Positions 37,084 through 47,033 of a stretch of DNA of 64,000 nt are shown here, piece by piece. Source of the DNA: Cyclobacteriaceae bacterium (GTDB lineage: Bacteria; Bacteroidota; Bacteroidia; Cytophagales; Cyclobacteriaceae); the NCBI GenBank assembly GCA_028284125.1, contig JANQSI010000009.1, forward strand, positions 124,001 to 188,000. Reading direction: 5' to 3'. The notes below the pieces were generated by a model. The model ran no database searches. It saw only the letters and a list, made by a program, of their open reading frames with translations, and was not told where the DNA came from. The translations under genes were made by a program, and so were the position numbers. How positions within the stretch are numbered: position 1 is the stretch's first letter; every line of letters starts with the position of its first letter.

Positions 37084-37677
37084 ATGAACAGATTTTTCAA
37101 TTCGCTTACGATACTGACATTCCTTTTCATCATAGTGGGATGTAAAAAGCTACGAACCTCATGGACAAAGGAGGGTTATGAAGGAAGATACTTTGCATCA
37201 CTAGCCGTATTGAGTTTAGAAGCAGATGCAGAAGAAAGAACTACTTACGAGAAGTATACGATCGACTTACTAGTTGAAAAAGGAATTAAAGCAATACCAG
37301 GATCAGTGATTGGGTTAGATTCCATTACTTCGAATCTTGACTTAGAAAGTTTGATCTTGGAAAATAACTTGGATGGAATTCTAACCATTGGTTTGACGAA
37401 ACGAGAAGAAGGCGGAATTTTACCAGAGGATTATAACAAGTTCAGCAAATTCCACTCACATCGATTTACAGAACTCAATACGCAACGCTACCTTGTTTCT
37501 GGAGGAAAGTACGTCATGGAAGGACTGCTTCATGATCTTAAAGTTCCGGAAGACAATGACCTGGTGTGGCGAGGCGAAATGGCCATGTTAGATCCAAACA
37601 GTGCAAATGCTAAAGAACGATTTATTAGAAGAGCAGTCAATCAGCTTGTTAGTGAAAAGCTTCTTACAACACAATAG
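37084..37677 (+). CDS. Lipoprotein, unknown
   Basis: A 197-residue lipoprotein. From ATG 37084 (MNRFFNSLTILTFLFIIVGC) the lipobox Cys is residue 20. The in-frame codon at 37042 overlaps the terminator and is rejected. The mature protein has a Rossmann-like alternation (FASLAVLSL, GILTIGLTKRE), somewhat like small LpoB/DUF4136-type lipoproteins, but I cannot assign a family. It is the last gene before the accessory island. Confidence 0.65.
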   Translation: MNRFFNSLTILTFLFIIVGCKKLRTSWTKEGYEGRYFASLAVLSLEADAEERTTYEKYTIDLLVEKGIKAIPGSVIGLDSITSNLDLESLILENNLDGILTIGLTKREEGGILPEDYNKFSKFHSHRFTELNTQRYLVSGGKYVMEGLLHDLKVPEDNDLVWRGEMAMLDPNSANAKERFIRRAVNQLVSEKLLTTQ

Positions 37678-38131
37678 TGCTTATTCTATAACTAATTATT
37701 TAACATAATATAAATTATATAACAAAATCGGATACTGAGCTTTTGAGGCTGTTTGACGATTCTACACTATTTAGATTATATAATGATGCGCACGGCTAGT
37801 GATTATTGTTAACCAGCAGAGCTGGGAATTTGTACGTGTACTACATCTGAGGTTTAATCTTTTAGATCCTGCTTCTAGCTGAGGTGTTATATAATTGTTC
37901 CGCTTTGGCGGAATTACCAGCCCCAAGCAAAAGTTTTCCAGCCAACATGCATCGTATAGATTCTCGTATTCGGGTATTTGTTCAGGTTGTTTTCCTATAC
38001 GCCATTCTCAGCGATTAGGAATTTGGCTGTTCAAACCCTTGCTGGCCATTGCTCTATTTTGCACCTTATTCTTTCCGCTTTTTGTTAAATAATTTATCTT
38101 TATATCTACCGTAAGAAATTTAGAGATCATA
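37678..38131. other. Non-coding stretch at left edge of accessory island
   Basis: 454 nt without a convincing gene. The 10-mer ATTATATAAC occurs at 37714-37723, its reverse complement at 37886-37895, and the near-palindrome ATTATATAAT at 37775-37784. A further direct copy lies at 39203-39212. GTTCCGCTTTGGCGGAAT (37897-37914) forms a small hairpin. Near 38091-38098 TATCTTTA resembles a -7 element for the next gene. Confidence 0.4.
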
Positions 38132-38464
38132 ATGGCATCAGAAACAAGAATAAACCTAACAGTTGATTGTGTATTCACCCTTCTTGACAGGGATGATGAT
38201 CCACAGAAAAGCTCATATGAAAAGCTTGCTGATATTGAAGATAGAACGTACACTCGTAGGCATAGATATGTAGCGGAAGGACTTATAATAGACCCATCTG
38301 GCCGAGGGCTCGAAAACTGTCCTGAAGCCGCAAGTCAAGCCTTCGAAAAAGTTGAAGCTCAAAAAGCCATGGATATCGCTACTTATAATGGTAATGATAT
38401 GATCGTTCTCTCGACTGTATATGGCGCATTGAATTATGGCAAATGCACATCAAAGACCTTTTGA
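38132..38464 (+). CDS. Small orphan protein
   Basis: A 110-residue acidic, soluble protein with ATG start 38132; no signal peptide or recognisable domain. Cys residues sit at VDCVF, LENCPEA and GKCTS. It is flanked on both sides by repeat-rich non-coding DNA, as typical cargo of an accessory region would be. Coding status rests on the intact frame and normal composition only. Confidence 0.45.
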   Translation: MASETRINLTVDCVFTLLDRDDDPQKSSYEKLADIEDRTYTRRHRYVAEGLIIDPSGRGLENCPEAASQAFEKVEAQKAMDIATYNGNDMIVLSTVYGALNYGKCTSKTF

Positions 38465-38826
38465 CTATAAAGGACCTCATTCCGAGAAGTAAATCAATTC
38501 ATTGCCTCGCTTCCTAACCATGTGAGAATCTCGTAAAACACCACGTGTACGTACTTTGACTTGTTTACCTCTGTACGGAGTTCATTCAGGCCCACTCAAG
38601 ACGCTGGGCTTTTACTTTTTTCATTGCCGGGCAGACGCTTCTGTAAAAAAGTAAACAAAAATCTAGCGGTCCGACGTTTCGGCAGAATAAAGCTTCCACG
38701 CACAGCCCAACGCATGGCCCGCTATTTTGTCAACCAGCCCGCCTAGATGCAGACTGTTCTATTTAACATAATAATAGACTGATCAATATTGAATTTAGCA
38801 ACAGTAAACTATTAAGCTTATCTTCT
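38465..38826. repeat. Non-coding repeat region (copy of the 57.1 kb repeat)
   Basis: 362 nt. Positions 38522-38609 match 57111-57200 in the same orientation with scattered substitutions; both contain GTGAGAATCTC, TACTTTGACTTGT and CATTCAG-CCCACT. Downstream is a GC-richer segment (about 38630-38750) with AAAAAAGTAAACAAAAATC and Cys/Arg-type codon noise. It encodes only implausible frames. Probably a dispersed non-coding repeat. Confidence 0.6.
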
Positions 38827-39204
38827 CTAATCTTCTGTGAAAGGTGTATAAATCCAGTTTATATTTTCAACTATGTTAATAGCAAGATAAGCTCTCTTTA
38901 GCTCACCTAAATAGATCAGGTCTCCTCTGGCAATAATGACAATTCTATCATCTTGCCTTTTTGCTTCGAAATATACATTGTATTCTGTGAATTCAATTAT
39001 TGATCCGGAACAGGTCGACTCAACCCCACATTCATGTAGCGCTTTAGAGATCCTCTTAGTTGGGGCGTGAATGCTTCTTTGTGTAATTGAAAACGCCCCC
39101 GACTCAACAGCTTCCAAACTTATATCACACTTAATATATTCAATCGTTTGTGCTTTGCTTGAATGACATAATAATGCTATGAAAAGAAAAGCTAATAGTT
39201 TCAT
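38827..39204 (-). CDS. Small exported protein, orphan
   Basis: Starting at ATG 39204 the product is 125 residues with a good signal peptide (MKLLAFLFIALLCHSSKAQ). Upstream in-frame codons would bury the signal. The mature part has three Cys (KCDIS, HECGVESTCSG) and beta-strand character. It lies 10 nt downstream of the next minus-strand gene, so the two form an operon. No family recognised. Confidence 0.55.
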   Translation of the reverse strand: MKLLAFLFIALLCHSSKAQTIEYIKCDISLEAVESGAFSITQRSIHAPTKRISKALHECGVESTCSGSIIEFTEYNVYFEAKRQDDRIVIIARGDLIYLGELKRAYLAINIVENINWIYTPFTED

Positions 39205-39214
39205 TATATAACGA

Positions 39215-39529
39215 TCAATACGGACAATTAAAGTATGGTCGGTAAGTACATCCACCATTTCCATTGCCAAAGTAGTGATATCGTCTTAAGAAGGCATCCT
39301 TATCAATACCAAAATGTTCTGCAACGAAATCTCCTAACATAGAATCATTGAACCGCTCATTTCTTACTATGTCACCCCAATAACCATATGGAATGCCATC
39401 GTCTGTAAATTCAATGGTAGTCTTAAAATACTCCATGTCGTCAGCACTTAAGCGAGAAAATGGGGTGTTGCGAGAATTTTGGGAATCTAAAAAGGATTCA
39501 AAGTCTGATTTACCTTTAAAAGTTGTCAT
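39215..39529 (-). CDS. Small protein with Gly/Cys/Tyr-rich C-terminal tail
   Basis: A 104-residue soluble protein. Residues 1-85 are acidic and look folded or leader-like (DSMLGDFVAEHFGIDKDAFL). The last about 18 residues change sharply to GNGNGGCTYRPYFNCPY, with two Cys. The layout of an acidic N-terminal part and a short Gly/Cys/aromatic end recalls peptide-natural-product precursors, but no maturase gene is next to it; only a small exported protein follows. Function not assigned. Confidence 0.5.
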   Translation of the reverse strand: MTTFKGKSDFESFLDSQNSRNTPFSRLSADDMEYFKTTIEFTDDGIPYGYWGDIVRNERFNDSMLGDFVAEHFGIDKDAFLRRYHYFGNGNGGCTYRPYFNCPY

Positions 39530-39752
39530 GATTATGTGGGTTATTTTGTGAACAATTTAATTTCATATCAATATGAGATGATCAAATTACTTTAATGAAT
39601 ATTCTGATCCTATACCCATTTTTAGGTATTTTTCACACAACGATATGACTTATTAAAGAAATTTTATAATCTATTGAGAAATCAAAACAATCCGCTATTT
39701 GTAAAGTGATAGTTTAGAAACTATACAATATGGGGTTCTACATAAAATAATA

Positions 39753-39989
39753 TTAGCGCATCTCTTCTTCAGCTCGAGTGAAGAAATCGATCAGCATATA
39801 GAAATCACAAGCCACTCCCTCGAAATCATTCGGTAATGCTTCATGTTCGCAGATGATGTATTGCAGATAAACTTTAAGTATGCTCTTACGGATGGCGTCT
39901 GGTGGTGAGAAATTTAATAGGTTGTCTAGTTCGTTGATTATTTCAGTGGTCAGTTTGGAATTTTCAGGAAGAACTATTGATTTAGGCAT
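39753..39989 (-). CDS. Small hypothetical protein divergent from XRE regulator
   Basis: A 78-residue acidic helical protein (MPKSIVLPENSKLTTEII), no signal. It is divergently oriented to the HTH gene at 40170 and shares a 180-nt control region with palindromes. It may be a partner or target of that regulator. No known family seen. Confidence 0.55.
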   Translation of the reverse strand: MPKSIVLPENSKLTTEIINELDNLLNFSPPDAIRKSILKVYLQYIICEHEALPNDFEGVACDFYMLIDFFTRAEEEMR

Positions 39990-40009
39990 TTAATCACATA
40001 TCTAATTGT

Positions 40010-40029
40010 AACCGATGTAAATATCGGTT
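40010..40029. promoter_or_regulatory. Inverted repeat in divergent control region
   Basis: AACCGAT and ATCGGTT, 7-bp arms with a 6-nt spacer, 21 nt upstream of the 78-residue gene. It could be an operator or a 5' leader hairpin of that gene. Confidence 0.4.
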
Positions 40030-40051
40030 TAACCAATATTATACGCAAATA

Positions 40052-40116
40052 AAACAATGTTTATTTCGATGAAAACATTCTTTACAATTGGATAAATATT
40101 GTTCAAAACAGTGTTT
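40052..40116. promoter_or_regulatory. Twin operator-like palindromes AAACAnTGTTT
   Basis: Two perfect palindromes of the form AAACA-n-TGTTT lie at 40052-40062 and 40106-40116, centres 54 nt apart. The second overlaps the expected -33 region of the HTH gene promoter. This is a likely autoregulatory site for the XRE protein. Confidence 0.5.
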
Positions 40117-40140
40117 TTATCGTTCTGAGGCCATATTTTG

Positions 40141-40148
40141 TATCTTTG
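40141..40148 (+). promoter_or_regulatory. -7 element of the XRE gene
   Basis: TATCTTTG matches TAnnTTTG; a T-rich -33-like stretch (40113-40118) lies about 22 nt upstream. Transcription would begin near 40155, leaving a leader of about 15 nt before the TTG start. Confidence 0.5.
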
Positions 40149-40169
40149 GATTGATAAAAGACTCTCCTA

Positions 40170-40373
40170 TTGGAACGAATAAACAGGATCAAAGAAGTAC
40201 TTGTCATTAAAGGAATGAGCCAAAAGAAATTGGCAGAGATCATGGACAAGAATCCAAACACCATTACTTCAATCTGTAACAATAAGTCGCAACCTCACTT
40301 AAAGGACTTAAAGCGAATGGCGGAGATCCTGGATGTTGATATTCGGGAGTTGTTGGTATCTACAAAAGAATAA
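40170..40373 (+). CDS. XRE-family helix-turn-helix regulator
   Basis: A 67-residue single-domain Cro/CI-type DNA-binding protein. The HTH (about 16-40) includes MSQKKLAEIMDKNPNTITSICNNK written across two helices. The start is TTG at 40170, the only start that keeps the first helix. It sits at the head of a short plus-strand pair with the DUF3800-like gene (8 nt apart) and probably controls itself through the AAACAnTGTTT palindromes. Such small XRE proteins are common in defence and mobile loci. Confidence 0.85.
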   Translation: MERINRIKEVLVIKGMSQKKLAEIMDKNPNTITSICNNKSQPHLKDLKRMAEILDVDIRELLVSTKE

Positions 40374-40381
40374 TTACTGGT

Positions 40382-41329
40382 TTGTCTAGATGGAACGACA
40401 TAGACGGTCCTGCTCCAAGTTGGGTATCAATGCTTAATAAAGCGATGCTCATCACAGACCTGCCCAGTCTAAGGGGTCCTAGTATTTATATAGCCTCTGA
40501 TTATGCAGGAGAAGTCAAGAATGATCAGTACTCTGTTTACTCATTTCTATTCTGTGATCTAGCAAATTCAAAATCATATTTTCAAGACGTATCCAGCTTA
40601 AGGAGAAATAGCTCACTCGGCTACAGGAGAATGAACTTCAAAAACCTGAATGATAAGATTAGATTATCTCATATTGAGAACTTCTTAACAGCCGCTGGTC
40701 AAATAGAGGGCGTTCTTCTAAATCTGGTTCTTAACAAGAGTATAATTCCCATACTAGATGAAAGTTCATATCCCGATCGATGGCATGACATCTTTGATTT
40801 AAAGGGTAATTGGAAGGATAAGGTGTTTACTAGAATGGTCAGAATTGTTCATTTTGTCAGTGTGTTAATGGGCGGACTTCTAAAAGAGGGCCAAAACGCA
40901 TATTGGATTTCTGATGATGACAATATTTTTTCGAATCCTGATTTTAATAAAGATGTTGGCAATATAATTGGCAGGCTAACAAGTTTCTATCTTAAGCAGC
41001 GACCTGGGGAATTGGGTCTTGGCACCACAGCAATCGATGAGGGGGATCTTATTGAAGAAGATTTGACGGGAATCTGCGATTTAGTGGCAGGTACTTTGGC
41101 CGAATTGATACCATACTATTCCACGCTACCTCAGTGGAATAAGGGGGATCAAAAGACATTTTTCTATGATCAATTACGAGAGAAAACTCAAATAATTGGC
41201 TATTGGCTATCTCAACCCAATGCGGCCCTCATGAGGAAAACATTTATTTTCGAACCTCATGAAGAATCCTTCAAAATGAGAATATTAAACTTGGAGAGAC
41301 CAAAACTTGACTACTTTAAATGGAGCTAA
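40382..41329 (+). CDS. DUF3800-like protein (putative RNase H-fold)
   Basis: 315 residues, TTG start at 40382. The first strand IYIASDYAG and following SVYSFLFCDL resemble the D-[ED]-x-G strand pair of DUF3800 proteins. Near the C-terminus, TTAIDEGDLIEEDLTGICDLVAG resembles the final Asp-bearing helix of that fold. Conserved acidic residues (D40, the DDDN cluster, D222-type) could bind metal. The Asp-Glu-Ser signature is altered (SDYAG), so the assignment is tentative. It is probably co-transcribed with the XRE regulator. It is convergent with the DUF5131 gene: the two overlap by 4 nt at their 3' ends. Confidence 0.5.
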   Translation: MSRWNDIDGPAPSWVSMLNKAMLITDLPSLRGPSIYIASDYAGEVKNDQYSVYSFLFCDLANSKSYFQDVSSLRRNSSLGYRRMNFKNLNDKIRLSHIENFLTAAGQIEGVLLNLVLNKSIIPILDESSYPDRWHDIFDLKGNWKDKVFTRMVRIVHFVSVLMGGLLKEGQNAYWISDDDNIFSNPDFNKDVGNIIGRLTSFYLKQRPGELGLGTTAIDEGDLIEEDLTGICDLVAGTLAELIPYYSTLPQWNKGDQKTFFYDQLREKTQIIGYWLSQPNAALMRKTFIFEPHEESFKMRILNLERPKLDYFKWS

Positions 41330-42051
41330 ACACTTCTTTGTAGTTCTATCTCTGGCATTTCATCGTAGGTTTTTCCTTTTAGAACTCTCCCATTTCTCTT
41401 CTTGTTTCTTCCACCCCATTGCTTGAAGAAAAATGCAACATCGTGATGTTCACACTGCTCTTGAATTTCAATAACCCACTCTGGTTTCATTGGTCTTGGT
41501 CTATGACCGCTTTCCCCGCCAACGATAACCCAGTCAATATTTTCTAAGTCCAGTCTTGACAAGGGACCAATCAGAGGTTCCAAAGAAAGGAATTTCACTT
41601 TTGCGTCAGTTTTCCTTAAAAAGTCAATGCGCTCTTCCACTTTTGAATCTTCCACTGAAACTCCCATCCAAATATTATGACTCCATTTGAGCTTGGGACT
41701 TAGTTCCAATAGTCTTTCGGCCCTTTTTGTTAGCACTTGAAAAACATGTTGAGGGTTTTCACGCATGACTGTGAACACTCTCTGAATAAATGAAAGAGGA
41801 ATATCCTTATGGAACAAATCACTCATTGAGTTCACAAAAACTATTTTGGACTTCTTCCATTTGTATGGAGTTTCTAATTCTTTTTCATGAATTCTTACTT
41901 CAAAATTATCCTTATACTTTTCTACTCCCATTGCCTGGAGTCTTTTAGACATAATCTCTGCATAACAGAACTTGCATCCCTGTGAAATCTTGCTGCATCC
42001 TGTAGTTGGATTCCAAGTCATTTCTGTCCATTCTATACTTGACTGTGCCAT
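41326..42051 (-). CDS. DUF5131 / phage Gp37-Gp68 family protein (three-Cys, radical-SAM-like)
   Basis: 241 residues. The N-terminal motif C19-x6-C26-x2-C29 (TGCSKISQGCKFCYA) is the hallmark of this family and probably binds an Fe-S cluster. Other family blocks are FVNSMSDLFHKDIP, VFQVLTKRAERL, WMGVSVED, FLSLEPLIGPL and VIVGGESGHRPRPM. Its start abuts the tcmP stop with no gap, and TcmP proteins are named as partners of this three-Cys protein. The family is known from phages and accessory regions; the biochemical reaction is not established. Confidence 0.88.
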   Translation of the reverse strand: MAQSSIEWTEMTWNPTTGCSKISQGCKFCYAEIMSKRLQAMGVEKYKDNFEVRIHEKELETPYKWKKSKIVFVNSMSDLFHKDIPLSFIQRVFTVMRENPQHVFQVLTKRAERLLELSPKLKWSHNIWMGVSVEDSKVEERIDFLRKTDAKVKFLSLEPLIGPLSRLDLENIDWVIVGGESGHRPRPMKPEWVIEIQEQCEHHDVAFFFKQWGGRNKKRNGRVLKGKTYDEMPEIELQRSV

Positions 42052-43176
42052 TTATTTTAGTTTAAAAGATACTTTGTCAGGGTCGTCTCTATAGTTCTTA
42101 TAATTGAGATAAAAAGACTTCTTCCTGGCCCTAGTACCATTAGCAAGTATAACTTCAAGTTTTGAATCTACTTGCCATGAATCAAAAACCTCATTTGCAT
42201 GCTTTGGCAGAAAACCAAGTCGCAATACGAACTCGAAGATTTCGGCATTACTTCTTTCTTTTGATCCCATAAACTCTTCAAGCTCAACAGCTAATTTATT
42301 AGTTTCCTGACCCGCAAAAAGACCAAGTTGTGGGGAATAATGCCAACCCTTGCCTGCCTCTGCATCTATATCCCACTTTGCCTCCAACATCTTCTCAAAA
42401 CCTTTTATGTGAGAAGTGAAAAAGAAGAGACAGAATACAGTGCTACTATCTTTTTGGATTGTAAAAGTGTCAACGTACAACTCCGTAAGTTTTGATTGAA
42501 ACCCTTCCCTAAGTTGATTTATGAATGACCACACATTATCTGATTTGTTCCAGTCTTTATATGGTACAATTTCTTCAATAAAATCTTTCAGAGCAGTTGG
42601 CGTACCATTAGTTTCAAATCGATACATGAACTGAGTTGGAAGCCAAAGTAGAACCTCTGTTTTCTTGTTTTTCATCAGTTCTTTTATGTGACTAACCTTA
42701 ATGTGCTTGTATTCATATGGGTCTATGAATACAAAAGCCTTTTCCTGTTTTATCGACGCAAGTTCTTTAGCTGTAACTTTTAACAGGTCTTTATAATCTT
42801 CTGATTTGAAATCTACTTTGGCTATATCACTATTTAGAAGGGATTTCTCCGTTAGAAAATTCTTAGTTTTTGCTACTTTCGATTCATCAAGGTCATTTAG
42901 GAGAACATCTATCTTAGGTATTCTTTTGCTCCTGGAGAGAAAACTGTAGTAGCAGTCCTTAACTGCCTTCATAAGAACCACTGGACTACCATAGCCACCA
43001 TTATCATAAACGCCCTCACCACAGAACAAATCGTATATCCTGATCTTCTGAGAGTACCCGTCATTGCTTATGATATTGAGGTACTTATTTATGTAAACTC
43101 CAAGTAATCTGACTTTGGCTTCAGAATGATTAAGTAGATTTTTCTTAGAGCTTCTTTTCTTTCCCACTTTACTCAA
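42052..43176 (-). CDS. tcmP: Three-Cys-motif partner protein TcmP
   Basis: 374 residues. The N-terminal half is methyltransferase-like: IYDLFCGEGVY (about 47-57) is a SAM-loop-like motif, followed by GSPVVLMKAV, and FVFIDPYEYKHI is a D-P-[YF]-like motif IV. The C-terminal half is specific to TcmP. It is transcribed directly ahead of the DUF5131 gene (stop and start abut), the standard arrangement. It may modify a nucleic acid or nucleotide with the partner (inference). A 226-nt gap separates it from the upstream abiV gene. Confidence 0.85.
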   Translation of the reverse strand: MSKVGKKRSSKKNLLNHSEAKVRLLGVYINKYLNIISNDGYSQKIRIYDLFCGEGVYDNGGYGSPVVLMKAVKDCYYSFLSRSKRIPKIDVLLNDLDESKVAKTKNFLTEKSLLNSDIAKVDFKSEDYKDLLKVTAKELASIKQEKAFVFIDPYEYKHIKVSHIKELMKNKKTEVLLWLPTQFMYRFETNGTPTALKDFIEEIVPYKDWNKSDNVWSFINQLREGFQSKLTELYVDTFTIQKDSSTVFCLFFFTSHIKGFEKMLEAKWDIDAEAGKGWHYSPQLGLFAGQETNKLAVELEEFMGSKERSNAEIFEFVLRLGFLPKHANEVFDSWQVDSKLEVILANGTRARKKSFYLNYKNYRDDPDKVSFKLK

Positions 43177-43402
43177 ATCAGTTGTTTATGACCGTTAAAA
43201 TACTAAATATATTAGCATAATCAAAGTTAACTAGTTGATGCCTCTGGAAGTCGATAACCTTGTTCTCATGTAGTAGAAACTCCCTTTCCTCAAGAAAATG
43301 ATTAGTGGCAAGAATTCGATTGCCTGCTGGCCTGGATGATCAATTCAATTTAAACTTAAATTTCTAGATCCTAACTATCAATAAAGATTCACCATTTGCT
43401 AC

Positions 43403-44014
43403 TTATTCTATGATTTTGTAATCCTCTGGGTTTATTTGTGTGAGGACTTCCAAGGTCTCTGCAAATGGAGTTGCGATTCTCACTGCCCTTTGATACGTTT
43501 CAAAATTAACAGAGCTAGGTAGTTGCCAGTTTCCATCAGTGTAATCCACATAAAACCCTGTCTTCTTAAGTTTGTCAGCATCTTTCCACCATTTCTCAAA
43601 ATCCCTTTCTGATTTCAGAAACTTTTCTAGAACATTATGAAGTAAAAGAATAATGCTAATGTCTAGAGCAACATGTTTTGATTCTTTAATCATTTTTTTG
43701 AAAGAGTCTAAGACATTGTGAATTGAATTCAACAATGACTGCATTTCAGCTGCATGTCGGTGTTTTGTTTTGTGGTCTCTAAAAAAGAGAGATATATCTG
43801 TGTCTGTTTTCACATTGAAGAATCCTGCTGTTAGAATCACACATTTGACATACTCCTCTACTGACAGAACAAGTAATGAACAAGCTAGACCATACTTTTT
43901 GATACTACCCATACTTTTACCTTGGATGTAGAGTGAGTTTCCATTCTTCACACATGCTTTTACACCAGCTAGGAGTACCTCTTTTGTAGCTGTTTTGAAG
44001 TCGATTTCATTCAT
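43403..44014 (-). CDS. AbiV-family (HEPN) abortive infection protein
   Basis: 203 residues, all helical. AbiV features are present: ACVKNGNSLY followed by KYGLACSLLVLSVEEYVK (the Glu pair helix), FFRDHKTKHRHAAEM and KTGFYVDYTDGNWQLPS. AbiV of Lactococcus blocks phage translation, and the Pfam family belongs to the HEPN group. It starts 11 nt after the reverse-transcriptase gene stop, so they form an operon. No classical R-x4-6-H motif stands out; HKTKHRH could serve as the basic/His centre. Confidence 0.8.
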   Translation of the reverse strand: MNEIDFKTATKEVLLAGVKACVKNGNSLYIQGKSMGSIKKYGLACSLLVLSVEEYVKCVILTAGFFNVKTDTDISLFFRDHKTKHRHAAEMQSLLNSIHNVLDSFKKMIKESKHVALDISIILLLHNVLEKFLKSERDFEKWWKDADKLKKTGFYVDYTDGNWQLPSSVNFETYQRAVRIATPFAETLEVLTQINPEDYKIIE

Positions 44015-44025
44015 TCAGTAAATAA

Positions 44026-45942
44026 TTAAGACTTAAAATGCTTGCGAAGAAACTTCATGATTTCAGATTTGTATTGATAATATTCGCTATGGCTTGCAGG
44101 CCAGAAAGCAAAATCCTCTTCCCCTGGATGAGATAAAGTATTTTTATTTCTTCTGTCATATAAATCAATGACAAGCTTTAATTCATCAACAGATATGTTT
44201 CTATCTTTCTTTAGAAAGCTCGTAACACTTTTTTGATTGTAGTTCTTGAGGGTGCCTTTCTTTGATGGGTTATCGTTTAAATAGCAGCAGATTTGGGTAA
44301 TGTTCAATAGGTGATTAAGTGCCTCATTAAATCGAGCTCTAATCTCCGATATTCTCAATAGCTTTATTTGCTGGGAAAGACTTTCATTCTGGTTCAGGTA
44401 CCGGTTGCTAAATGGAAATTCAACTGAATTGGAGACTTCTTCAAGTCCAAGAAGCCTTTTGATAAGTTGAAAATGTGTAGACTCTTTTGTTTTTGTATGC
44501 TTCTTTATATCGCTGTTAAACGAACTTCTTTTATTCTTAATAAGAATGATTTTTTCTAAAACAAAAGTCCAATGAGGATCGGTGAGACATAGCTCGAAAT
44601 CCTTTTTGATACTTTTGATTAAGTGGTCGAGTCCCTTTCTAGTGTGGCTTAATAAAAATAGTATAGATGTTATGCTAGAAGTTGTAATTATCGGTGGCCA
44701 TTTACTAAATGCAGATGATAAGTCTCGCCTTGCATGGTTAGATTTAAGATAGTGTTTTACTGTTTTTTGAAAGCACTCCTTTAGTTGAAGTTCGTTTTCG
44801 TTGGAAAGTACAACCAACCCCTTCTCTGAATATTCGGCTTTCAAATCAGAGACAACCTTCACAATGCCATTCAGTACATCTTGCGGAGTGCGGTTATCTG
44901 GCAATTCTGCTCCAAATGAAGTGAATTGGATTTGGCTATTGAATTTTCTTAGGTCCCGCCTATTCTCAATGATGTGTGCCTGTGTCTTGTTCGAATTCAG
45001 GCTCAATTCATATTCATCAAGAACAGTTGACAATTTATCTGTCAAGTTGTAAAAACAATTGCCGATATATTGATGTGTTCTATTCTTTGGGAAAAACCTT
45101 ATGATGATGATATCATCTACGTATCTAAAATAGAGGGTTTGATTTTCGTTCAATACATTCTCATGAACGTATGTGTCAAAAGGAAGTAGAAAACAATTAC
45201 TCAAAAAATTGGAAACCAAATTATGTTTTGAAAGAGGAAGGCCTTTATCATTTCCTTGAGCTAGCAGCAAAAAATTCTTGATTGATTCGATTGTATCGAC
45301 GTTAAATTTTAATGCTTTTTTGCTTGTGCTAGTAGCATTTGAAGAAATAGTATTTAGTAGTTGTTCATGACTGATGGAATAGTAAAAATTTTGAAGGTCT
45401 AATTTTAAAATGCCTATTTTTTTGTTTCCTAACTGATCTATAATAGAGTTATTTATGCGGGAGTGAAATTTAGCGAAATCGTTATGATAGTATATTTTGC
45501 TTTTTTGAGGATTTTCAAAGTTTATACCACCTCCGTAAAAAGTATTTATTCTTTCAAAGGTCTTGCGGAAAGATTCAAGTTCATCTAGCCAGGGACTTAC
45601 AAGTTCTAGAATATAGAATCCCAAGGCATAGTACATCAGTTTTAAATAAGCACTAGTAAAATTGAATCTCCTAATTCCAAACCTGCTTTTGGGAATGGTG
45701 TATGACAGGTTTTGGAATCTTGAAGGATTGTTGTAAAAACTATCTTTTTCAACAAATTCATCATAGAATTTTGAAATTGAGAAATTTTTTGGAATGGATT
45801 TTTCCCGCCTGTAGATTTCAAAATCTAGACTGTTAAAATGATAGGACTCTTGGTCCAACTGTAAACGAATAAGATCTTTAGCCTTTTGTAAATGATGCTC
45901 TTTTAGAAAATATCCGAAATGATAATTCTTTGGTGGTGACAT
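44026..45942 (-). CDS. AbiA-like reverse transcriptase with C-terminal HEPN motif
   Basis: 638 residues. RT core: motif A LKLDLQNFYYSIS (D182), motif B GLPLSKHNLVSNFLSN (from G234), motif C YFRYVDD (D276, D277) and motif D LSLNSNKTQ. The palm is followed by about 300 helical residues. Near the end, R598-N-K-N-T-L-S-H605 fits the HEPN RNase motif R-x4-6-H. Size and layout match AbiA (about 628 residues, RT plus HEPN), one of the Abi group of defence RTs that make DNA without a template. No retron ncRNA or group II intron structure was seen beside it. It leads the operon with AbiV. Confidence 0.82.
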   Translation of the reverse strand: MSPPKNYHFGYFLKEHHLQKAKDLIRLQLDQESYHFNSLDFEIYRREKSIPKNFSISKFYDEFVEKDSFYNNPSRFQNLSYTIPKSRFGIRRFNFTSAYLKLMYYALGFYILELVSPWLDELESFRKTFERINTFYGGGINFENPQKSKIYYHNDFAKFHSRINNSIIDQLGNKKIGILKLDLQNFYYSISHEQLLNTISSNATSTSKKALKFNVDTIESIKNFLLLAQGNDKGLPLSKHNLVSNFLSNCFLLPFDTYVHENVLNENQTLYFRYVDDIIIIRFFPKNRTHQYIGNCFYNLTDKLSTVLDEYELSLNSNKTQAHIIENRRDLRKFNSQIQFTSFGAELPDNRTPQDVLNGIVKVVSDLKAEYSEKGLVVLSNENELQLKECFQKTVKHYLKSNHARRDLSSAFSKWPPIITTSSITSILFLLSHTRKGLDHLIKSIKKDFELCLTDPHWTFVLEKIILIKNKRSSFNSDIKKHTKTKESTHFQLIKRLLGLEEVSNSVEFPFSNRYLNQNESLSQQIKLLRISEIRARFNEALNHLLNITQICCYLNDNPSKKGTLKNYNQKSVTSFLKKDRNISVDELKLVIDLYDRRNKNTLSHPGEEDFAFWPASHSEYYQYKSEIMKFLRKHFKS

Positions 45943-46253
45943 AATAGCAAATCGTTTAGCAATCTTTAAGTTAATTCATTTCTTCTAACGGATTAGCATA
46001 TTCAAAACCGCACACTTTTTCCAGCCCTCTTCCCCTACTCGACCAAAGCTTCAAAAAGAGTGCTCCACTCCTACACGAAATTGATATGACTACATCTTGG
46101 CTCGAAGACCTGTGCTAACTATTAATCCCTACCCTCCCGATAGTTATCTGGACTAAAGCTGATTTAACCGGGCCGCGCAGGATCTGTTAAAGAGTTGTTA
46201 ATCCTTTTTAACAAAAGCCTCCATCCTTTCTTTAAGCACTACTTTTACGATCG
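45943..46253. repeat. Non-coding region with dispersed repeat (copy of 56.85-57.0 kb)
   Basis: 311 nt between the RT gene and the LytTR gene. Positions about 46016-46185 align with about 56850-57000 in the same orientation, sharing blocks such as AGAGTGC-CACTCCTA, ACTATTAAT-CC-ACC and CTGATTTAAC. It is GC-richer than its surroundings and has no plausible frame. It marks the right edge of the accessory island. The leftmost part must also hold the RT promoter. Confidence 0.6.
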
Positions 46254-47033
46254 ATGAAATCCACAAAACTCAATCTAGCGCTACTTTGTACCATAGCTTT
46301 TACAGTTGGTTTAGGATGGGTTTATCAACATGCTTCCGGCACACTTTGTTACTCAAAACTAGGTTTTATCTATGCAGGGAATATCCTTTTTTGGATGGCT
46401 GCAATAAGGCCTATTTCCTCACTGTTTTCTAAGCAACTTGAAAGGCAAAATCTGCTAGTTAGTCTTGCTAAAGTTGGTCTTGTTACTCTTATCTTTAATC
46501 AGCTAATTGTTTACTTCTTTGTAGAAGGTTTGTTCGCTATTTTTTATAGTTGTGAATCAAACATCCTATTATCAGAGTTGATTCTTACTAATGGATTGCT
46601 TTCCAATTCCATTGCATTCATACTAATCATCATAGGCACCAACTATGAAGCAGTTATAGATAAATTCAAACCATCAAACATTGCTGGTTCACCAAAATCG
46701 AACCTGCTATACATTAAGCAAAATGGCGCTATTCATCTTATACAACCCTCAGAAATAATAAAGCTGGAAGCAGACAACAATGCGGTAAATATTTTTACCC
46801 GAGATCGACGTTTTGTTCAATATGGCCGTTTAAAGGACTGGGAAAACCGACTCAAAGATGAAGGCTTGATTCGGGTACATAGGTCTTTTATTATAAACAG
46901 GGAGTACATTCAAACCTATCAGACCAAACCAAGTGGAGATGGTTTAATCACCCTTTACAATGGAGATAAAGTAAAAGTATCTCGCAACTATCGTCCTAAT
47001 CTTTACTACAACGGTGAATTAATCGCTAGTTAG
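46254..47033 (+). CDS. Membrane-anchored LytTR transcription regulator
   Basis: 259 residues. Four hydrophobic helices (about 7-25, 38-55, 70-95, 108-130) precede a LytTR DNA-binding domain (about 148-255) with the family run LEADNNAVNIFTRD, then RVHRSFIINREYI and VKVSRNYRP. There is no receiver domain; activity would be controlled through the membrane part. Its likely targets are the genes directly downstream (DUF5916 protein onward). Confidence 0.85.
   Translation: MKSTKLNLALLCTIAFTVGLGWVYQHASGTLCYSKLGFIYAGNILFWMAAIRPISSLFSKQLERQNLLVSLAKVGLVTLIFNQLIVYFFVEGLFAIFYSCESNILLSELILTNGLLSNSIAFILIIIGTNYEAVIDKFKPSNIAGSPKSNLLYIKQNGAIHLIQPSEIIKLEADNNAVNIFTRDRRFVQYGRLKDWENRLKDEGLIRVHRSFIINREYIQTYQTKPSGDGLITLYNGDKVKVSRNYRPNLYYNGELIAS

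Follow-up and report, generated by a model that had tools for sequence, protein, structure and literature searches.

The window, a 64,000 nt stretch of Cyclobacteriaceae DNA, carries an intact gene for a remote member of the AbiA-like reverse transcriptases (RTs), followed on the same strand by an intact gene for an AbiV-family HEPN protein, and members of the two families showed no conserved linkage in the genomes sampled. Because AbiA-like RTs and AbiV were not found together in the relatives examined, the pair is better read as two neighbouring defences than as one two-part system. The explanation that we favour, with moderate confidence, is a divergent single-protein AbiA-type defence polymerase next to AbiV as a separate, probably co-transcribed module. 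The features concerned are the following:

44026..45942, minus strand: AbiA-like reverse transcriptase (RT), 638 aa, intact ORF
44015..44025, minus strand: gap from RT stop to AbiV start, 11 nt, letters TTATTTACTGA
43403..44014, minus strand: AbiV-family HEPN protein, 203 aa, intact ORF
45943..46253, minus strand: intergenic region upstream of the RT, no known RNA family, folding not unusual

Reading of the ORFs confirmed the length, strand, coordinates and YVDD motif (residues 274–277) that a sequence-only reading of the window had given for the RT, and the distance of 11 nt to AbiV was verified directly from the RT stop codon (TAA, 44028–44026) and the AbiV start codon (ATG, 44014–44012). 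The two genes are probably co-transcribed, since the gap between them is so short. No terminator-like sites were found in 43000–46300, where shuffled sequences averaged 1.8, and promoter-like sites were not enriched (8 versus 11.5 in shuffles). An ncRNA of the DRT2/DRT9/DRT10 type upstream of the RT was considered, and is unsupported both by Rfam (no matches up to E 1 in 37600–46400) and by folding of the 311 nt upstream of the RT (z-score −0.24, no signal of a structured ncRNA), tests which unknown ncRNAs can escape.

Family, fold and motifs of the reverse transcriptase

The proposed AbiA-like identity of the RT was borne out by the PADLOC AbiA model PDLC03741, which matched residues 54–637 (E = 1.9e-34), and the Pfam RVT_1 model was matched at 33.3 bits (cut-off 29.6). 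The NCBIfam AbiA model TIGR04499, which matches four of four proteins scanned (best 3.5e-85), gave 108.9 bits, under its cut-off of 250; the RT is therefore called AbiA-like here and falls outside the NCBI subfamily as this cut-off defines it. The PADLOC AbiA model PDLC02341 did not match the RT even at 0.1, though it matches 8/10 aligned proteins at 1e-10, and the Pfam HEPN models matched none of ten aligned proteins (the RT and nine relatives). There is also a weaker similarity to Drt3a models (NCBIfam 61.5 bits, cut-off 200), but the window RT differs from DRT3 in having a HEPN domain and no second RT beside it.

With the RT alone as query, no relative was found in genome_contigs, viral_contigs, or plasmids and phages (1e-5). 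A pattern scan recovered 12 AbiA-like loci (L017–L028) from Bacteroidota, Cyanobacteriota, Nitrospirota, Bdellovibrionota and one Anaerolineae genome, with Hymenobacter ginkgonis, Fulvivirga sediminis, Nostocaceae, Nitrospirota and Bdellovibrionales among the hosts; three of these loci come from genomes (G666, G571 and G521) of a 291-genome sample of the window's order, and G666 belongs to the same family as the window's genome. Two AbiA-like genes are broken, one by an in-frame stop (L020:5950–7869) and the other by inserted frames (L027:5944–9335). Homology of the window RT to two AbiA-like RTs extends over the full length (139 and 160 bits) and is not due to chance, and the nine unbroken proteins are homologous to it end to end, with the HEPN motif and the invariant residues of both the RT and HEPN parts in common. 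These nine are 34–66% identical among themselves, whereas the window RT is 22–25% identical to each, in a matrix that leaves out the two broken genes and L028, which is cut by a contig end (row P0003 of alignments A1 and A2 is a piece of the L028 protein that begins at an internal start, so that misalignment of its first residues is possible). In a tree with six other RTs, the nine grouped together (58/89 support, 62% of bootstrap trees) and the window RT fell outside, on a long branch that makes its placement unsure. The window RT is thus a real, intact and remote branch of the AbiA-like RTs, and partly new as a variant.

At a threshold of E 10 the window RT gave 30 weak matches in plasmids, mostly to annotated RTs, and five of these loci (L008–L012) were inspected: an annotated SLATT gene precedes the RT in L008, L011 and L012, L009 has mostly 'hypothetical protein' labels, L010 lies on a large Pseudoalteromonas plasmid, and none of the five has an AbiV-annotated feature. 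The L009 RT (same record and coordinates) is classed in PMC8934634 as AbiA with a SLATT_5 neighbour, and the neighbours of AbiA RTs named in that study are MazF, HTH_XRE and SLATT_5. The AbiA relative P0002 as query found nothing in plasmids and phages, nor did alignments A2 and A4 in viral contigs.

Lactococcus AbiA was not reached by sequence searches of the PDB, and was reached by fold search only. The AlphaFold2 model, made from the window RT and nine relatives (pLDDT 76.6, pTM 0.76), was divided by eye into fingers and palm (~76–330), a flexible loop (331–352), a helical domain (353–514) and a C-terminal HEPN domain (~515–638). The four best Foldseek matches in the PDB were chains of Lactococcus AbiA (8oz7), with TM 0.64–0.70 over 665–668 alignment columns, whereas the other 46 matches listed (DRT9, Abi-P2 and more) had TM 0.24–0.35 by query length, the shorter RTs among them reaching up to 0.55 by their own length. 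As the alignment behind the model contained AbiA relatives, the match to 8oz7 is not fully independent of them. The predicted structure thus has the three-domain architecture of AbiA, with RT-like, helical and HEPN domains in one chain; it shares with Lactococcus lactis AbiA the order of these domains, the catalytic Asp residues and an R-x6-H motif, but only 14% identity in the structural alignment.

The RT motifs had been called intact in the sequence-only reading. This holds for the catalytic residues, as alignment with relatives showed that D182 of motif A and the Asp pair D276 and D277 in the YVDD of motif C are kept, together with R273 and K319, but not for motif B, where Gln in 9/9 full-length relatives is replaced by Leu237 in the window RT (GLPLSK versus GIPQSD or near in most relatives). 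A further difference from L. lactis AbiA lies in the presumed priming loop. In Lactococcus AbiA, a partly disordered loop (290–310) holds Tyr298, described as conserved in AbiA, and Tyr303; their double mutation abolishes polymerase activity and defence, and AbiA alone protects E. coli in a manner requiring the polymerase and priming residues (PMC11077055). Loop 331–352 of the window RT contains no Tyr, nor is there any from residue 326 until Y371, and residues 341–348 have pLDDT <50 in the model and are presumably flexible. A loop Tyr occupies the aligned column in 7/10 relatives, a column which we infer to correspond to Tyr298, L. lactis AbiA itself being outside that alignment. The L026 protein has a Tyr elsewhere in the segment, and those of L022 and L023 have none, so its absence may be tolerated. 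Given Leu237 and the loop without Tyr, neither polymerase activity nor Tyr priming at the AbiA place can be assumed. With the window RT, the AbiA-type RTs gain a deep side branch that lacks some residues used to explain AbiA chemistry, and priming and motif-B dependence become testable across the family.

The R-x6-H motif reported at the C-terminus was recovered as R598-NKNTLS-H605 (RNKNTLSH, compared to RNSNPVSH in L. lactis AbiA), with R598 and H605 invariant in 11/11 aligned rows. The window RT keeps R597, R598, N599, N601, S604 and H605, and within positions 597–605 six of nine are invariant in ten full-length rows versus 55/638 overall (hypergeometric p 2.2e-05, with rows that are not independent). 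The invariance of R597, R598, N599 and N601 is partly selected, because the search pattern included RRN.N, whereas S604 and H605 lie outside that pattern. The motif is near-invariant across phyla (alignment A5), yet the published R581A, H588A and double mutants of Lactococcus AbiA still defend; no RNase activity was seen for Lactococcus AbiA, and its HEPN domain is needed for dimerisation (PMC11077055). The HEPN domain of the window RT should therefore not be presumed to be an active RNase, and the earlier proposal that the RT product controls a HEPN RNase conflicts with these data. The puzzle is sharpened by the alignment, as R-x6-H is among the most conserved parts of a family in which mutants lacking it are published as unimpaired in defence for the Lactococcus protein.

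AbiV and the linkage of the two families

The second gene product is a clear AbiV, as had been proposed, with scores far above the cut-offs of PF18728 (74.5 bits, cut-off 27.1) and TIGR04498 (62.2 bits, cut-off 27), and a length close to that of L. lactis AbiV (203 versus 201 aa), from which it differs in having an RT as its partner gene. It is at most 37% identical to nine other aligned AbiV proteins, and keeps E53, E54, H81, Y155 and P166, which are invariant across the ten. AbiV proteins typically lack the His of the Rx4-6H motif and have another conserved His, described in PMC3710099 as an alternative HEPN site; H81 is probably its counterpart. According to a review (PMC3231927), the 201 aa Lactococcus AbiV is a homodimer that binds SaV, a phage protein, and its probable effect is a block of translation. 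Searches with the window AbiV found nothing in viral_contigs, plasmids and phages, and another AbiV protein (P0006) found nothing in plasmids. Folding without an alignment gave a model with pLDDT 44.2, which was set aside. Recent duplication of one HEPN domain from the other, in AbiV and the RT, was considered and is unsupported, since a profile comparison between AbiV and the AbiA-like alignment did not match HEPN to HEPN (probability 0.1).

The RT and AbiV had been suggested to form a distinct system joining an RT with two HEPN modules, for which a neighbourhood survey was set beforehand as the test. The survey spoke against it: the AbiV HMM detected AbiV in 0/12 AbiA-like loci (positive control, 12/12 AbiV loci), and the AbiA HMM found an AbiA-like RT in 0/12 other AbiV loci (positive control, 12/12 AbiA-like loci), so that the window RT differs from the RTs of L017–L028 in adjoining AbiV. 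On each side, 9/12 control loci had helped to build the HMM, whereas L045, L048 and L080 for AbiV and L020, L027 and L028 for AbiA had not; the AbiA HMM is not all-inclusive, as it misses three plasmid RTs including that of L009. Sequence downstream of the RT amounted to at least 3.4 kb in ten AbiA-like loci and almost nothing in L018 and L022, and there was almost none upstream in L024 and L028. The AbiV loci L040–L048 were read with up to ~1.5 kb on each side; the AbiV match in L045 is interrupted by a stop, and the one in L048 covers only model positions 3–88 of 155, in a 522 aa protein.

Among the genomes surveyed, the window's own was the only one with the pair. Of the 291 genomes sampled from the order, five were matched by the AbiA model, or four after G425 (42.6 bits) was dropped from the count for its tandem RT pair, which we take to resemble DRT3, and AbiV was found in three, with only the window's genome common to both. 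The AbiA model matched one of 395 genomes of the phylum (the window's own), compared to ten with AbiV (own included), and the AbiA-like alignment matched two of 148 genomes of the family. In the genus (ten genomes, own included), the RT was present in the window's genome only and AbiV in two; in the second congener, which lacks the RT, AbiV lies directly behind HsdR, itself behind an AbiEii gene. In Lactococcus, both AbiA (PMC11077055) and AbiV (PMC3231927) are described as systems of a single gene, and the window RT differs from the published single-gene AbiA in preceding AbiV. The titles and abstract openings surveyed from the AbiA, AbiV, HEPN and DRT literature described no AbiA-AbiV unit, which is a statement about those texts rather than a claim of absence from print. 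A joint RT-AbiV system is thus unsupported by linkage in the sampled relatives, and cooperation specific to this pair is possible.

Genes next to AbiV were scanned in six of the 12 loci (L080, L041, L040, L042, L044 and L037), and at least 3/12 AbiV genes adjoin restriction genes: HsdR is directly upstream in L080, HsdS ends 2 nt upstream in L041, and L037 has a CfrBI-type R-M set, while a Ymh gene (L042) and an RNA ligase gene (L044) were further partners. The position of AbiV directly behind type I restriction genes in L080:296–5094 (HsdR with AbiEii) and L041:1348–3416 (HsdS) suggests that R-M systems carry AbiV as an operon-tail module. In L044:244–1992, the AbiV gene is followed by a T4-type RNA ligase gene. 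AbiV is thus a module which adjoins unrelated defence genes, with type I and II restriction genes and an RT among them.

AbiA-like RTs also occur in varied company. In a Sphingobacteriales genome, one is placed inside a BREX-type cluster, with brxC and pglX on its two sides (L026:2291–12111), the Nitrospirota RT of L021:1292–8992 is flanked by type I methylase/specificity and Mrr genes and by a PDC-M50 pair that includes a ThsB TIR-like protein, and that of L025 adjoins a C5 methylase. Tandem RT genes, presumably of DRT3 kind, were seen in another genome of the order (L016:7159–10989). As both AbiA-like RTs and AbiV mix with varied defence genes, the best reading of the window pair is as one of these encounters.

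Competing readings of the pair

If the RT and AbiV are two neighbouring defences, the RT would, by analogy with Lactococcus AbiA, dimerise via its HEPN domain and make untemplated DNA attached to itself during phage infection, and this DNA would block phage growth. AbiV would be a separate HEPN defence protein, which by analogy may bind a phage factor and stop translation; it would have been appended to the RT gene, the RT being among the several unrelated defence genes with which AbiV partners, and the two would probably share a transcript in a variable island of defence genes with low GC. We infer polymerase activity, protein priming, phage defence, co-transcription and the independence of AbiV alike.

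A true two-gene system, in which the RT would detect phage or synthesise a DNA-protein product by which AbiV, the effector of translation arrest or RNA cleavage, is held back or activated, is rather unlikely. The shared strand, the 11 nt gap and the lack of a terminator-like site are as a real two-gene unit would show, the invariant AbiV residues are kept, and an RT this remote from the relatives found could have gained its own partner during evolution; against this, neither survey nor the order sample gave a second case, the only other AbiV in the ten genomes of the genus sits behind HsdR without an RT, and both proteins are described as one-gene systems in Lactococcus in the sources cited above. 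We consider it unlikely, too, that the RT has changed its chemistry, using Ser/Thr or other priming or a different substrate or template, or merely binding DNA or nucleotides. Leu237, the loop without Tyr and the low confidence of residues 341–348, which recalls the partly disordered priming loop of Lactococcus AbiA, would fit such a change, but the catalytic Asp residues, R273 and K319 are kept, the relatives L022 and L023 do without Tyr in that segment, and no ncRNA signal was detected upstream.

A further reading holds that a new AbiA-like lineage no longer primes from Tyr at the AbiA place, has altered motif B and has recruited AbiV as a dedicated HEPN effector, switched on by DNA synthesis or by a phage block of that synthesis; we regard this as quite improbable. 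Decay of the RT, AbiV or both into passengers of a defence island with no present function appears very improbable. The rarity, low GC and single occurrence of the genes, the loss of some family residues in the window RT and the broken relatives in L020 and L027 would agree with it, but neither frame is interrupted in its 638 or 203 codons, and the core motifs are kept in both proteins.

Genomic setting

The two genes are lower in GC (RT 0.335, AbiV 0.358) than the window (0.392). They are flanked on one side by gyrA, a TPR gene and a 211 aa gene in succession, and on the other by a LytTR gene. The flank past the TPR gene was read in six congeners, and the 211 aa gene was next in three of these, one of which (L073) is on a contig that ends soon after it. 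With the exception of an XRE match in L075, none of the window genes from 38132 to 45942 was seen beyond that point in the six congener flanks, and by eye XRE is accompanied by HNH or TIR-like genes in the flanks of L072 and L075. The setting is best read as a variable, low-GC defence island.

Two further pairs of genes lie close to AbiV. An XRE-type HTH gene is followed after 8 nt by a gene for a 315 aa protein (40170–41329), which matched nothing in Pfam or PADLOC at E 0.1, and the two could be a toxin-antitoxin-like or defence pair. The other pair starts 226 nt after AbiV and consists of adjacent genes on one strand (41326–43176), which match the candidate defence pair PDC-M30A/B of PADLOC and are probably a defence unit separate from the RT and AbiV:

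42052..43176, minus strand: TcmP-like protein, PADLOC candidate PDC-M30A (3.4e-150); TIGR04474 138.7 bits, cut-off 53
41326..42051, minus strand: DUF5131 protein, PADLOC candidate PDC-M30B (1.3e-131) / PDC-M41B (1.1e-132); PF07505 336.6 bits
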